From positions 1 to 24,469 of IMG/VR virus record IMGVR_UViG_3300046331_000487: DNA of 24,469 nt; one strand, written 5' to 3'. Numbering within the stretch: position 1 is the stretch's first letter; every line of letters starts with the position of its first letter. This DNA comes from a virus. Position numbers and translations under genes: made by a program. This document shows, one piece after another, positions 7,909 through 23,320 of the stretch. Under the pieces are notes generated by a model that saw nothing but the letters and a program-made list of their open reading frames with translations, made no database searches and had not been told where the DNA came from.

Positions 7909-8310
7909 TCAGCTATTTTTAGAACCCGCTTCCCTGCTTATTCTTGACTGGCTTAGACCGGTCAATCTTGATATCATGCCCTGGCTTGTGCCTGAGTCCA
8001 TTGCTCGTCGAACTGCCTCAAAGTCTACAGGCCCGCCATTGCTTACACTGAATAGCACAGTGGCTATGTCCTCTAGGCTTTGTGGCGAGAACCGCCCGCC
8101 CTTTTTGTTGGCTTTCGGGATGTTAGCGCTAACAGCCACATGGCTAAGAACACCACCCGATATTTTCGATATCTGGCGATTTGAAAATAAATCATAGTTT
8201 GCGAGATCTTTGGCCTTCTCAATTAGCGCCTCCTTCCTGATAAGTTCTGCATTATCTCTAATCCAAATTGCTTCATGTATTGCGAATAGTCTGTCTGATT
8301 GTTTACGCAT
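7909..8310 (-). CDS. Putative DNA-binding protein with helix-turn-helix segments, 133 aa
   Basis: Two segments resemble helix-turn-helix units: NYDLFSNRQISKISGGVLSH in the middle and MISRLTGLSQSRISREAG at the C-terminus (about residues 111-128). The N-terminus is helical and charged. No enzyme motif is seen. The start shares the TAATG junction with the primase-helicase gene upstream, so it is co-translated with replication genes. A replication-accessory or regulatory role is plausible. Confidence 0.6.
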   Translation of the reverse strand: MRKQSDRLFAIHEAIWIRDNAELIRKEALIEKAKDLANYDLFSNRQISKISGGVLSHVAVSANIPKANKKGGRFSPQSLEDIATVLFSVSNGGPVDFEAVRRAMDSGTSQGMISRLTGLSQSRISREAGSKNS

Positions 8311-10505: not shown

Positions 10506-10537
10506 GTATCCTCCTTTCTATTTGTTTCTCCCATTTG

Positions 10538-10609
10538 CTGCCCCTGCTGGATTCGAACCAACAACCTTAGAGTTAACAGCTCTCTGCTCTGCCATTGAGC
10601 TAAGGGGCA
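10538..10609 (-). tRNA. tRNA-Asn (anticodon GTT)
   Basis: Read on the minus strand, TGCCCCT (5' acceptor) pairs with AGGGGCA. A GCTC/GAGC D stem, a CTGTTAA anticodon loop giving GTT, and a T arm with TTCGAAT loop are all present; the discriminator base is G and no CCA is encoded. The outermost anticodon-stem pair is a G-A mismatch. It lies 32 bases upstream of the primase gene start in the same transcript. Confidence 0.9.
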
Positions 10610-13148: not shown

Positions 13149-13490
13149 TTAGAACAGTGTATCTGGTTTTCTGGAAAAGTCAATACCGCCCCACACTCCA
13201 TACTGCTCCTCGTTTGCAACAGCAAAGTCGTAGCACTGCTTTAGTATTGGGCAACCATAGCACAAGGCTTCGCAGTCGTCCTCGGTGAGGGCTGAGCGCC
13301 CAGGTCCGTTGCCACTGCGAGCCTCAAAACCCAGACCGTCATAGTCGGTATAAAAGTATGGGTTATACAGGCATGGGTAGTATGGTTCTTTCTCGATTGC
13401 CGAGAACAACGCTCGCCACTTCCCCATAGCCTCCGGCTTTATGCCGAAGTGCAATGGGTCGGTAGTCATAATGGTTCCGTCTCCGGCCAT
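13149..13490 (-). CDS. WhiB-family Fe-S transcription factor
   Basis: The protein has the WhiB cysteine block (C73-x3-C77-x2-C80-x5-C86, with C40 also available) and the G[VI]WGG turn (YGVWGGIDF, residues 97-105). WhiB proteins carry a 4Fe-4S cluster, bind the primary sigma factor and are nearly confined to actinobacteria and their phages. At 113 aa it is of usual size; the C-terminal basic tail is very short (SRKPDTLF), so DNA contact may be limited. Start shares the TAATG junction with the membrane-protein gene upstream. It may redirect host transcription or affect host septation. Confidence 0.92.
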   Translation of the reverse strand: MAGDGTIMTTDPLHFGIKPEAMGKWRALFSAIEKEPYYPCLYNPYFYTDYDGLGFEARSGNGPGRSALTEDDCEALCYGCPILKQCYDFAVANEEQYGVWGGIDFSRKPDTLF

Positions 13491-17403: not shown

Positions 17404-18039
17404 CTATTTGTCGCACTTTGAACAATTGCAGGAGTGTTTCCCGTCCTTGTCCATAGACTTCTTTTCCTCCACAGTTCGAGGGCAGTCCTTATACCAAGAG
17501 TCTTCGTCGTCGTCCCACTCACACACGCACTCACGCCCCTTTGAGACGTAATCCTCGTGCGAATCTGGGATGTCCCACTCGGACTTGTGGCTAACCTCGC
17601 CGTTGTGGTAGGTGAGGATGCCACCCCAGCCCTGCTCCTCTTCGTATTCAACGTTGAAGATTAGGTTTGGGAACATCTTTGCCATAGCGTCGAACACTGG
17701 CATTGGTGGCGACCATGCAGTGTTGAAGTTGATAAGCACATAGTCGCTAAGGCCACGCTCCACAACTTCTTCACAAGCGTTCCACTTGGTGTCCCAGTTC
17801 TCGTTGTTCCACTTATACCAGTTGAACTCAGGGTCTCCGCTAAACACGCCACCACTGTAACCGGCGACGCTGTGGTATTGCTCCACCTTGTCCTCTGGCG
17901 GGGTGACGAACGAGTGGAAGTTGAACTGCCTCGGTTCATTTGGGGTGAACGGTGACGGCTTGCTAGCGTGTTCTAGGAACGCTGTTACCTCTGCGTCGCT
18001 ACCTCGAACAGAAATTGAATTGAATACCCAGTTAGGCAT
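17404..18039 (-). CDS. Api92-like / DUF1281 ferredoxin-fold protein, 211 aa
   Basis: The MPNWVFNSISVRG N-terminus, SFVTPPED, the WNACEEVVERG segment and ISVRG-like strands match the Api92-like/YubB ferredoxin-fold family of phages and plasmids (typically MPNWC.N...G). Function of the family is not known. The last ~40 residues are unusual: ECVCEWDDDEDSWYKDC and HSCNCSKC, a Cys cluster that resembles the amidoligase insert. Its stop lies 37 bases before the next gene's start. Confidence 0.75.
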   Translation of the reverse strand: MPNWVFNSISVRGSDAEVTAFLEHASKPSPFTPNEPRQFNFHSFVTPPEDKVEQYHSVAGYSGGVFSGDPEFNWYKWNNENWDTKWNACEEVVERGLSDYVLINFNTAWSPPMPVFDAMAKMFPNLIFNVEYEEEQGWGGILTYHNGEVSHKSEWDIPDSHEDYVSKGRECVCEWDDDEDSWYKDCPRTVEEKKSMDKDGKHSCNCSKCDK

Positions 18040-20210: not shown

Positions 20211-21299
20211 TTAGTCCCAGTAAGAACGACGGCTAAAACGAGAGCCGATAGTCTGGGACCGATTGAACTGATACTCATCCTCAGAAGCCGGAGTGACCTC
20301 CTCAGGGTCTTGGGTGTAACACATATTCTTGTCCGACCAGTAACGGTTGTAACGAGCCGTCTCGTAGTCCTCGTGAAGAGTGTCATAAGTTCCCATATAA
20401 GTGCCGTCGAAGTCATAGTAGAAACCCTCGTGAAGCACAAAGCCCTCTAAGTAATCCTCGAAGCCCTCGTCATACTCCTCCCACAAGCCACTGTATGGGT
20501 CGTCATAGCCCCAAGCAGTGCTTTGCTGGGTGAACTTGCCACCGGCAGTCGCAGAGCGGTAAGAGGCGTAAGAGGATGCTGACAACTTCTGCTCGAACTC
20601 AGGGTCAAGGTCAGGCAAAGTAGACATCTCATCAATGCGACCATCGCGAACAGCAAGCAGTGTGCGCTCCTTCACGTCCATAATGAAGTTATACTTGAGG
20701 CCAACAGAATCCAAGGCATTAGTCAGGATAGACTCGGTAGAGGCAAACACGAACGAGCCGTCAGCCAACTGAGCAACAGTCAAAGGACTGTGGCTGATAC
20801 GAGCAACATTGAGAACACCCTTGTTAGACTCGTCAAGCCAAGCAACAGCCGCATCGCCGTCAAGCATAGAGAACTTGTCAGTAGAAGAGAACTGCTGAAG
20901 AATAGCAGGAATAACAGCAGTATCAACATCTGGCAACTGCTTAGACTTAGACAAATGCGCACGAACAAGGTCGTGGTTATAAATGACACCATTGTGAACA
21001 AGGCTAATAGACGAATCAGGCGACTGAACCGGGTGATTGTTACGGTTATCACGAATAGAGCCATGCGTTGCAAGGCGAGTGTGCAAAATGACACTAGAAG
21101 CCTGCTTAGGCATAGACTTGAGAGTTAGGTTGCTACCAGAAACATCCTGCTTATAGAAGCCAGAACCCTGAGCATACTGGAAAGCATAACCAGAAGCCTG
21201 ATTGCCACGCTTCTCCAGTCCGGTAAGCAAAGCGTGAGCGAGTTTACGAGCATTTACTTTAGAGCCTGTCGAGAGGCTGAATCCACCGATTCCACACAT
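20211..21299 (-). CDS. Class II glutamine amidotransferase (Ntn hydrolase)
   Basis: The true start is ATG 21299, because it places the nucleophile at Cys2 (MCGIGGFS), exposed after Met removal. Further GATase-II elements match the GlmS/PurF group: HTRLATHG, LVHNGVIYNHDL, DVDTAVI and MLDGDAAVAWL. This domain (about 1-240) releases ammonia from glutamine. No synthase or isomerase domain follows; instead a ~120-residue acidic, Tyr/Asp/Glu-rich tail (GYDDPYSGLWEEYDEGFEDY, and YDFDGTYMGTYDTLHEDYE) ends in RSQTIGSRFSRRSYWD. A good promoter is at 21354-21382. It lies divergent to the amidoligase, its likely ammonia user. Confidence 0.88.
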   Translation of the reverse strand: MCGIGGFSLSTGSKVNARKLAHALLTGLEKRGNQASGYAFQYAQGSGFYKQDVSGSNLTLKSMPKQASSVILHTRLATHGSIRDNRNNHPVQSPDSSISLVHNGVIYNHDLVRAHLSKSKQLPDVDTAVIPAILQQFSSTDKFSMLDGDAAVAWLDESNKGVLNVARISHSPLTVAQLADGSFVFASTESILTNALDSVGLKYNFIMDVKERTLLAVRDGRIDEMSTLPDLDPEFEQKLSASSYASYRSATAGGKFTQQSTAWGYDDPYSGLWEEYDEGFEDYLEGFVLHEGFYYDFDGTYMGTYDTLHEDYETARYNRYWSDKNMCYTQDPEEVTPASEDEYQFNRSQTIGSRFSRRSYWD

Positions 21300-21353
21300 A
21301 ATATCTAATCCATTCCGACCCATCCGGGTCAATTGCGTTTTCCAACTACTTAT

Positions 21354-21382
21354 AGTTTACGGGAAAACATCCGTCGTGTCAA
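21354..21382 (-). promoter_or_regulatory. Sigma70-type promoter of the amidotransferase gene
   Basis: Minus strand: TTGACA (21382-21377), 17-base spacer, TAAACT (21359-21354), giving a predicted ~50-base leader before ATG 21299. The ribosome site (GGAATGG) is weak and far, so translation may be low or regulated. Confidence 0.75.
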
Positions 21383-21417
21383 CAACATTCGCAAACTTTT
21401 TTGAGAATTTTTCCCCC

Positions 21418-21446
21418 TTGAGGGATTTTCTTGACATCTGTATATA
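21418..21446 (+). promoter_or_regulatory. Candidate promoter for the amidoligase direction
   Basis: Plus strand: TTGAGG (21418-21423), 17-base spacer, TATATA (21441-21446). It is 36 bases from the divergent promoter, so the two may compete or share a regulator. A nearby TTGACA at 21431 has no -10 at proper spacing. Confidence 0.5.
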
Positions 21447-21687
21447 GTCTAATGGTTGCCGGCTTGGTTGTCAAATCGAAAACGCAAAAAATCCGGGCAA
21501 ATTCAAAAAAGGTCGCATCCTTATAAGGGTCGGGGTGGGTTCTAAAATTTAGAAATAGTGAGTGGGCGAGTAAAGAGTTATTGAAATGAGATATAGAAAT
21601 GAAATATTGAACCGCGGCGGTCAGCCCGTCGTGGGATCACGAGAGACACGGGCTTCCCGCGCGGGGGGTTTGGCTCAGATATAGGAG
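21447..21687 (+). promoter_or_regulatory. Long structured 5' leader of the amidoligase transcript
   Basis: About 240 bases without an ORF. It holds a near-perfect palindrome TTCTAAAATTTAGAA (21540-21554) and a GC-rich hairpin in which AGCCCGT-CGTG (21623-21633) pairs with CACG and ACGGGCT (21648-21654), flanked by CCGCG and a CCCGCGCGGG palindrome (21656-21665). There is no T run, so it reads as a structured leader, not a clear terminator. No known riboswitch class was recognised. Confidence 0.45.
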
Positions 21688-21810
21688 ATGATAAATGACA
21701 ACAAGTCACTAAATATATTATTCGGAATGTTATTCGTAATCTTAACGCTGCTATGCGTAGTAGCGCCGATAATGCATTCAATAGAATGCGGTTCAAAATT
21801 ATATTGTTAG
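21688..21810 (+). CDS. Possible small membrane protein, 40 aa
   Basis: The frame MINDNKSLNI... carries one hydrophobic span (ILFGMLFVILTLLCVVAPIM) and ends seven bases before the amidoligase ATG. AGGAG abuts the ATG (too close for the best initiation). Hydrophobic content and position suggest a real leader or membrane partner, but a chance frame is possible. Confidence 0.45.
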   Translation: MINDNKSLNILFGMLFVILTLLCVVAPIMHSIECGSKLYC

Positions 21811-21817
21811 GAAAAGA

Positions 21818-23320
21818 ATGTCCAACTTAGTTGAATTCAGAGCATCAGCTGTCAAGGCGATGGCGAAGTACGAAGAGATCTGGAACAGCAGATTCAACGA
21901 AAACGGCGAGCGCCGTCAGATGACAAACGAAGAGTTCAAAGAGATCTTCAGCATTCTACCAGGTTACAAGCTAAACGATGGAGTGTTCTACAGCGTTCGA
22001 CACATTATCACCGGATGGACTCCAGAGACATTGGCTGAACCGTCAGAGAATATCGCAGAGCTTGTTGAGTATCTCAAAAACAACCGGATCAAAGCTACTG
22101 TTTGGTTCGCAACTATGAAAGCAGCAGCAGACAAGATCGGACTCATTTACAATGTAAACGTTCGCAACGGTAACATTATCTTCAGTCAAGATGAGACATC
22201 GATGATTGCAGGCAGCGAGCTTCTAGAAGACATAAACTTCTATTACATGCTAAAGCAGCTGAGCGTTATTGAGATTACTCGCGAGAACCTAATTCGTGGT
22301 ATTTCAACATACAACGACTGGCTAGCGTCATACAGCCGTCAGCTTCGCAATAACTCAATTCCAGAAGCCAAAAACACTGGAATCGAGAAGGTGTTTGAGC
22401 AGGCACCAAAGCCAGAAGCTGAGTTGATCCTAGCTCAGCTTGACGAAGCAATCAAGTTGCTACCAAGCAACGGTCTAACAGCCAGAACTTGGGGCTTCGA
22501 GATTGAGGTTCCAGACGCCAAGAACGTTACACCAAGATTCAATTCAGGAATCGAAAAGGGCGAAGACGGAAGTCTTCGTAGCTACGAGGGTAACGACGAA
22601 TGCGAGTGCGGATGTTCAGACTGTGTATTTCACAGCTGCGACTGTGACAACTGCACAGACTACAACGACGACCCAAGCCACTGTGGAGACAGTGACTGCC
22701 AGACAGCAGACATGGCAGAGTTCCGAACCGTTGGTGGAGTCCAGCGAGCACACCACAACGGAATGTATCAGCTATGCAAGGAACTGAACGAGAACAATGC
22801 AGAGATGAATGACACTGCAGGTACTCACATTCACGTATATGCTCAGGACTTGACAACCCACCAGGTTGGTCAAGTAATGGCAATCTACAAGTACATTGAA
22901 GGTATTGTTAGCCCGATTGCTGGACGTTACAACGTGAACTACGCAGGTAAGGTACGTACTGACCACGTAGCAGCAGCGTTGAAGCGTAAAGATCCAAAGC
23001 TAAACAACGTCAAGCAGGTTGCAGTGAACGTAATGCACTTGCTAGGCGGACGCGGAACAATCGAGTTCCGACAGATGGACTGTAACTTGAACGCAAACAA
23101 GATTACATTCTGGGCTTGGCTAGTTCGTGGACTTGTCGAGACTGCAAAGCGTGGAGCATCGCTCAAAGACTTCAAAAAGGTCCAGGACTTGAACGACGTT
23201 ATTGATGTTCTCGGTAAGTTTGAGTTCTTCATCCAGAACGAGAACCCAGGAGATGTAATCTTCGGAAGCAAGTCAGACCAGATGTTGGTCAAGACCCAGA
23301 TGCACAAGCGTATCGACTAG
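21818..23320 (+). CDS. Amidoligase-family (Amidoligase_2, COOH-NH2 ligase) protein, 500 aa
   Basis: Residues ~224-450 fit the putative amidoligase family, a glutamine-synthetase-like fold: WGFEIEVPDA (ExE metal site, 225-231), EKGEDGSLRSYEG, EFRTVGGVQRAHHNGMYQLC, DTAGTHIHVYAQDLTTHQVG (HxH), GRYNVNYAG and GGRGTIEFRQMDCNLNANKI. These match the order in which this family carries its ATP/metal and substrate residues. The N-terminal ~220 residues are of unknown function. A Cys-rich insert (about 260-295, ECECGCSDCVFHSCDCDNC) is probably a zinc module. The family is predicted to make amide bonds using ammonia or an amine; the paired amidotransferase is the likely ammonia source. RBS AGGA is six bases upstream. 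Confidence 0.8.
   Translation: MSNLVEFRASAVKAMAKYEEIWNSRFNENGERRQMTNEEFKEIFSILPGYKLNDGVFYSVRHIITGWTPETLAEPSENIAELVEYLKNNRIKATVWFATMKAAADKIGLIYNVNVRNGNIIFSQDETSMIAGSELLEDINFYYMLKQLSVIEITRENLIRGISTYNDWLASYSRQLRNNSIPEAKNTGIEKVFEQAPKPEAELILAQLDEAIKLLPSNGLTARTWGFEIEVPDAKNVTPRFNSGIEKGEDGSLRSYEGNDECECGCSDCVFHSCDCDNCTDYNDDPSHCGDSDCQTADMAEFRTVGGVQRAHHNGMYQLCKELNENNAEMNDTAGTHIHVYAQDLTTHQVGQVMAIYKYIEGIVSPIAGRYNVNYAGKVRTDHVAAALKRKDPKLNNVKQVAVNVMHLLGGRGTIEFRQMDCNLNANKITFWAWLVRGLVETAKRGASLKDFKKVQDLNDVIDVLGKFEFFIQNENPGDVIFGSKSDQMLVKTQMHKRID

Follow-up and report, generated by a model that had tools for sequence, protein, structure and literature searches.

Since the 24,469-nucleotide stretch of viral DNA analysed here (IMG/VR record IMGVR_UViG_3300046331_000487; hereafter the window) carries a stand-alone class II glutamine amidotransferase (GATase) gene (positions 20211–21299, minus strand) and, facing away from it, a gene for an amidoligase (21818–23320, plus strand), the question arises what these two neighbouring genes are for. 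In our view, their products are the subunits of one enzyme, a glutamine-dependent amide synthetase made by an actinobacterial phage, a reading to which we assign a probability of about 0.62. Both positions and the divergent orientation, as described in an initial annotation of this DNA, were confirmed in the window, and the region that separates the genes (21300–21817) is non-coding, with no open reading frame (ORF) of at least 45 amino acids in its 428-bp open gap.

The program-listed ORF of the GATase begins at a TTG codon (21332). As the cysteine must follow the initiator methionine and since TATG directly before MC(G/S) is preserved among the relatives, we place the start at the ATG at 21299, from which the 362 residues are numbered. 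The protein matches GATase_6 (PF13522, 4.6e-21, above the cut-off), GATase_7 (PF13537, 2e-14) and PHROG 14519 (1.5e-39), and contains the motifs M1-C2-G-I, H73-TRLATHG-80, H102-NGVIYN-108 and D124-VDTAVI-130. All glutamine-site residues expected of PF13522 members (Cys after Met, Arg, Thr, Asn-Gly, Asp) are present, and C2, H73, R75, T78, G80, N103, G104 and D126 are unchanged across 40 relatives. The glutaminase domain (residues 1–228, which the PHROG match covers; 20616–21299) has a predicted local distance difference test (pLDDT) score above 90 throughout, within an AlphaFold model that reaches 85.4 overall and that Foldseek matches to 1xff, the glutaminase domain of GlmS (E 7.8e-14, TM-score 0.74–0.75 on the target); as modelled, the GATase carries the N-terminal nucleophile (Ntn) hydrolase glutaminase fold. 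GlmS, PurF and AsnB have the same domain and residues, but their synthase domain sits on the same chain, whereas Pfam finds neither a synthase nor any other second enzyme domain beyond about residue 230 of the window protein, in agreement with what had been read from the letters before. What follows instead is a partly disordered tail (20214–20615, pLDDT blocks of 33–93) with a small confident patch at about residues 280–320, whose motif Y-D-x-x-G-x-x-x-G is kept in many relatives. One profile search of genome contigs returned no host or prophage relatives of the GATase.

The 500-residue amidoligase is assigned to the glutamine-synthetase-like carboxylate-amine ligases by Amidoligase_2 (PF12224; 3.9e-8, 33.9 bits at a cut-off of 22), by PHROGs 2443 and 7469 and by Foldseek, and 32 of the 37 relatives likewise fall in this Pfam family (best 8.5e-16), so that the family assignment first made from the motifs W225-GFEIEV-231, G335-THIHV-340 and G413-TIEFR-418 holds. 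Its catalytic core (about residues 220–470; 22475–23227) contains E228-x-E230, D250, H337-x-H339, Y375 and E416-x-R418. Escherichia coli GlnA shares this set of motifs and their order, with E130-x-E132, H270-x-H272 and I-E358-V-R360 as counterparts of E228-x-E230, H337-x-H339 and I-E416-F-R418, residues which in glutamine synthetase we take to bind metal and substrate. Across the 37 relatives, E228, E230, D250, G335, H337, L345, Y375, E416 and R418 are unchanged, and H339 and D344 are conserved in at least 90%. With the AlphaFold model (pLDDT 84.7) as query, the 50 PDB matches listed by Foldseek are glutamine synthetases and YbdK-type carboxylate-amine ligases, although with weak E-values (best 5.2e-3), and phage amidoligases in BFVD follow down to 8e-31; 39 viral proteins match at E ≤0.001, most of the named ones being amidoligases. 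Structure prediction thus returned the glutamine-synthetase-like fold and the active residues that the initial annotation had suggested looking for, and given the conserved catalytic residues and predicted folds, both proteins look like working enzymes. Ahead of the core lies a mostly helical N-terminal domain (about residues 1–215; 21818–22462), which occurs in the long forms only and has no Pfam or PDB-sequence match. Short amidoligases of about 280–350 residues without this domain, located 530–1240 bp away from the GATase, are found in contigs L018, L021, L023–L025, L028–L031, L033, L035–L037, L042, L044, L046, L048 and L050, with no consistent extra gene in the larger gaps.

That the two enzymes act together is suggested above all by their linkage. 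A sample of 61 viral contigs was collected by the GATase alone, with the amidoligase unused, and was reduced by four duplicates to 57, some of which are still nearly identical and one of which is the window's own genome. An amidoligase adjoins the GATase in all 52 contigs that are long enough, the other five ending within about 360 bp of the GATase, and in the reverse test a GATase was present in 10 of 10 contigs found by the amidoligase; the co-occurrence anticipated for relatives was therefore seen from both sides. The genes stand in three arrangements, namely divergent, amidoligase to GATase (4–395 bp apart) or GATase to amidoligase (about 290 bp apart), and since the adjacency survives rearrangement, it is strong evidence for joint function. 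The same neighbours are present in the isolate phages LUZ24, SU10, J3S, LAh_9, LiSara, Ottawa and Marvin (gp105-gp106). In contigs L062 and L065, at 6.5–10.7 kb, one GATase is flanked by two amidoligase-family genes, one upstream and one downstream.

In the proposed amide synthetase, the GATase would use Cys2 as N-terminal nucleophile and convert glutamine into glutamate and ammonia, which would pass, presumably within a complex, to the amidoligase; a hand-over of this kind had been proposed at the outset and appears plausible. The glutamine-synthetase-like subunit would then activate a carboxylate with ATP and join it to the ammonia, yielding an amide. This carboxylate would belong to a host molecule, most likely a peptide-like acceptor such as a wall precursor, a peptide or a protein.

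A feature that might bear on the choice of acceptor is a cysteine-rich insert in the amidoligase (residues 262–294; 22601–22699) of the form CxCxCxxC-x4-CxCxxC-x9-C-x4-C, which follows the DGS strand of the core and precedes the next conserved Glu strand, beside the active site. Every one of the 37 amidoligases aligned for the window group has it, with five invariant cysteines and a sixth in at least 90%, and it is absent at the matching place from the amidoligases of LUZ24, SU10, LiSara, Ottawa, Bacillus phage 035JT001, CVT22, LAh_9, the Porphyromonas phage, KIT05 and Marvin. The AlphaFold confidence over the insert is low (about 44–47). Metal binding by the insert is probable, as is a role in shaping the active site on its substrate side. 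The window shows no DNA similarity to isolate phages, and tblastn against these gave no match with the full-length amidoligase and weak matches alone with its core; among the matches listed, none reaches the insert.

The GATase also appears to be controlled in its own way. On its strand, two tandem sigma-A-like promoters, 92 bp apart, occupy 21354–21474: an upstream TTGACA-17-TAGACT (21446–21474) and a downstream TTGACA-17-TAAACT (21354–21382), conserved in relatives near -175 and -83, respectively. At least one TTGAC-18/19-TA...T site precedes the GATase on its strand in every divergent relative scanned, and many of these have two promoter-like sites at the said distances, with a background of 0.127 sites per kb per strand. 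The tandem promoters probably serve the entire leftward replication operon, and from these host-type sites the GATase is probably produced immediately after infection, an early position that agrees with the immediate expression described for the corresponding module of phage PSA-HP1 (PMC7082346).

Between promoters and gene lies a leader hairpin, GACCC-GGAT-GGGTC followed by GGA (21317–21330, minus strand), 17 nt before the start codon. Hairpins with a 5-bp stem, the loop GGA(T/C) and a following GGA, 16–19 nt ahead of the start codon, occur in 13 contigs (the window, L014–L017, L019, L020, L022, L026, L027, L032, L034 and L039). Their nine distinct sequences give 45 pair cells, all of them standard, with double-sided changes in four of the five pairs, and none of the 500 shuffles or of the slid versions reaches the covariation score; elsewhere in the loci the pattern has only a few scattered matches. 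No Rfam family matches the hairpin, as the Rfam scan returned tRNA only. It may control translation of the GATase.

The pairing of GATase and amidoligase as such is not new, as it is known in phiEco32, LUZ24, RIO-1-type, Marvin and Arthrobacter phages. Of the claim that the locus represents a predicted phage amide-forming system, the class assignment therefore stands, whereas the discovery of that class does not, having been published for other phages. The larger module of LUZ24-, phiEco32- and RIO-1-type phages comprises a COOH-NH2 ligase, an amidoligase, a GATase, an ATP-grasp ligase and a gamma-glutamyl cyclotransferase. LUZ24, SU10, J3S and LAh_9 indeed carry an amidoligase, a GATase, a second (COOH-NH2) ligase and an ATP-grasp or RimK-type enzyme, and a cyclotransferase is annotated in LUZ24 and SU10. 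The window resembles these phages in that an amidoligase adjoins a class II GATase among or near replication genes, but differs in its divergent gene order, in the cysteine-rich insert and in the missing partners: the cyclotransferase (PF06094) was found in none of 22 window-like contigs and in all four distant ones, and the second ligase (PF14395, COOH-NH2_lig) is absent from 26 contigs, with LUZ24, SU10 and J3S as positive controls. Of the 29 Pfam families in the remainder of the genome, the 25 shown include no ATP-grasp family, an absence that is less certain because the RimK-like model PF08443, which matches nothing in the window relatives, also missed the annotated enzyme of LUZ24. The window pair is thus a reduced, two-gene version of the larger module in WhiB-carrying actinophages.

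The host assignment follows from this WhiB-like gene (13149–13490, minus strand; PF02467, 1.8e-10). It has counterparts in 19 of 22 window-like contigs and in Arthrobacter phage Ottawa, was not detected in LUZ24, SU10 or the four distant contigs, and among 14 control genomes the search gave a match in Corynebacterium only. Since WhiB genes occur in the window-like contigs, an actinobacterium is the most likely host, which the promoter form TTGACA-17-TA(A/G)ACT fits. LiSara, Ottawa and related Arthrobacter phages have a GATase 36–37% identical over the domain and an adjoining amidoligase, but their genes are co-directional and lack the insert, and the LiSara pair has an annotated gamma-glutamyl cyclotransferase next to it. 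Mycobacterium phage Marvin likewise has an actinophage pair, gp105-gp106, with amidoligase motifs in gp105, but is distant in sequence and carries ribbon-like CxxC motifs at the N-terminus of gp105, not in its core, and in the tail of gp106. Marvin gp105 (L088:31627-32988) is labelled "glutamine amidotransferase domain protein"; its motifs GVELEV, GYHIHV and YELRF are those of an amidoligase, the fold match of its Tesla homologue is also amidoligase-type, and gp106 is the GATase. A GATase-amidoligase fusion, suspected from the BFVD match to Tesla A0A2L1J0D3, was rejected on this ground, as the Marvin homologue gp105 is a misnamed amidoligase.

As far as our searches show, the two-gene version, the cysteine-rich insert and the control of the GATase by promoter and leader hairpin are new. 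One could go further and picture an actinophage amide synthetase of a separate kind, with an active site remodelled around a cluster of metal-binding cysteines, with a substrate different from that of the LUZ24-type module, and with a GATase that is turned on immediately and held back by a new cis-acting RNA hairpin; taken as a whole, we regard this picture as doubtful.

With respect to the substrate, nothing here favours peptidoglycan over a peptide, protein or metabolite. One special case of the amide-synthetase reading, which we hold to be possible if tentative, is that the pair amidates a host protein, peptide, small molecule or signal early in infection, for takeover or counter-defence. 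The position of the GATase directly behind host-type promoters and the immediate expression of the HP1 module speak for it. Moreover, CxxC-rich or zinc-ribbon-like pieces recur in the GATase tails of LUZ24, SU10, J3S, KIT05, LAh_9 and CVT22, in both Marvin partners and in the amidoligase core of the window clade, and would suit the binding of a macromolecule. These pieces may, however, be merely structural, LiSara and Ottawa have none, and the proposal names no specific substrate.

A second special case, which names the substrate and which we judge to be rather unlikely, is that the two enzymes act on wall precursors, amidating their D-Glu or diaminopimelate and thereby altering the action of other phages or of the phage's own endolysin. 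A peptidoglycan modification module has been predicted for the homologous genes, along with conjectures on protection from superinfection and on endolysin control as also put forward in the initial annotation (PMC5498523, PMC11945000 and PMC10580990, citing Iyer et al., 2009 and Hardies et al., 2013), and cellular stem-peptide amidation in Gram-positive bacteria employs a separate GATase and an ATP-dependent ligase subunit (MurT-GatD, PMC3267633). An M23 peptidase encoded by the window phage (PF01551, 1.3e-22, with PHROG matches as well) can be counted on the same side. GatD and MurT belong to other fold classes than the window pair, and the likeness is convergent at best. In addition, the neighbourhood of the pair contains no cell-wall synthesis gene, neither the two genes nor those around them hint at the wall, and the module is found in phages of Pseudomonas, Escherichia, Arthrobacter and Mycobacterium, hosts of differing wall chemistry. 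Many actinobacteria already amidate their stem peptides, so that in such a host the reaction may be redundant.

Several observations weigh against the amide synthetase. Besides the weak PDB E-values of the amidoligase model, the papers found contain no biochemistry for any phage GATase/amidoligase pair. The genes of the window lie on opposite strands, and the conserved promoter is missing from the amidoligase side, where the relatives hold only five promoter-like sites in varying places; synthesis of the two subunits may therefore be out of step. The amidoligases of Bacillus phage 035JT001 and of Porphyromonas phages have no annotated GATase nearby, so a member of the family may use another amine. 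Finally, the GATase-amidoligase distances correlate in a mirror-tree analysis (Spearman 0.78 over 52 contigs), but over 28 common contigs the value of 0.65 stands against 0.81 for GATase and helicase. The correlation is therefore explained by co-inheritance with the genome, and we dropped it as evidence for pair-specific co-evolution. The orphan amidoligases, the divergent transcription and this unspecific correlation would also be expected if the genes were neighbours but uncoupled, with the amidoligase coupling a carboxylate to some other amine and the GATase at work in a different reaction. We consider this quite improbable in view of the adjacency in 52 of 52 contigs through three arrangements and because the GATase, having no synthase domain of its own, needs a partner. 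An amidated, hypermodified DNA base, as in archaeosine-type phage pathways with a class II GATase, has the occurrence of such domains in Gat-QueC in its favour but is barely conceivable, given that the 25 families shown, of the 29 elsewhere in the genome, include no deazaguanine or hydroxymethyl-base gene.

The glutamine-dependent amide synthetase hence remains our preferred reading. A GATase beside an amidoligase is retained in phages whose hosts differ widely, and we found no report of the product of such a pair. As the window clade has two genes and neither a cyclotransferase nor a second ligase, a single biochemical experiment could be enough to establish the core reaction, and the cysteine-rich insert and the leader hairpin offer specific, testable features. 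A wall target, if true, would account for a kind of superinfection exclusion that has been proposed, and a protein or signal as target, if true, would amount to new takeover or counter-defence chemistry.

The window itself is a rotated piece of a 52-kb circular genome map. The ends of the underlying contig (G001, also L002) overlap by 123 bp; the window reads across this join at 8103–8225, and the two copies of the overlap differ by one base. The families shown for the remainder of the genome include ThyX, dUTPase/DCD and ordinary replication genes. An Api92-like protein with a ferredoxin-like DUF1281_C domain (3.5e-13) is encoded at 17404–18039 (minus strand), and a single tRNA-Asn (GTT) lies in the replication region at 10537–10609 (minus strand).

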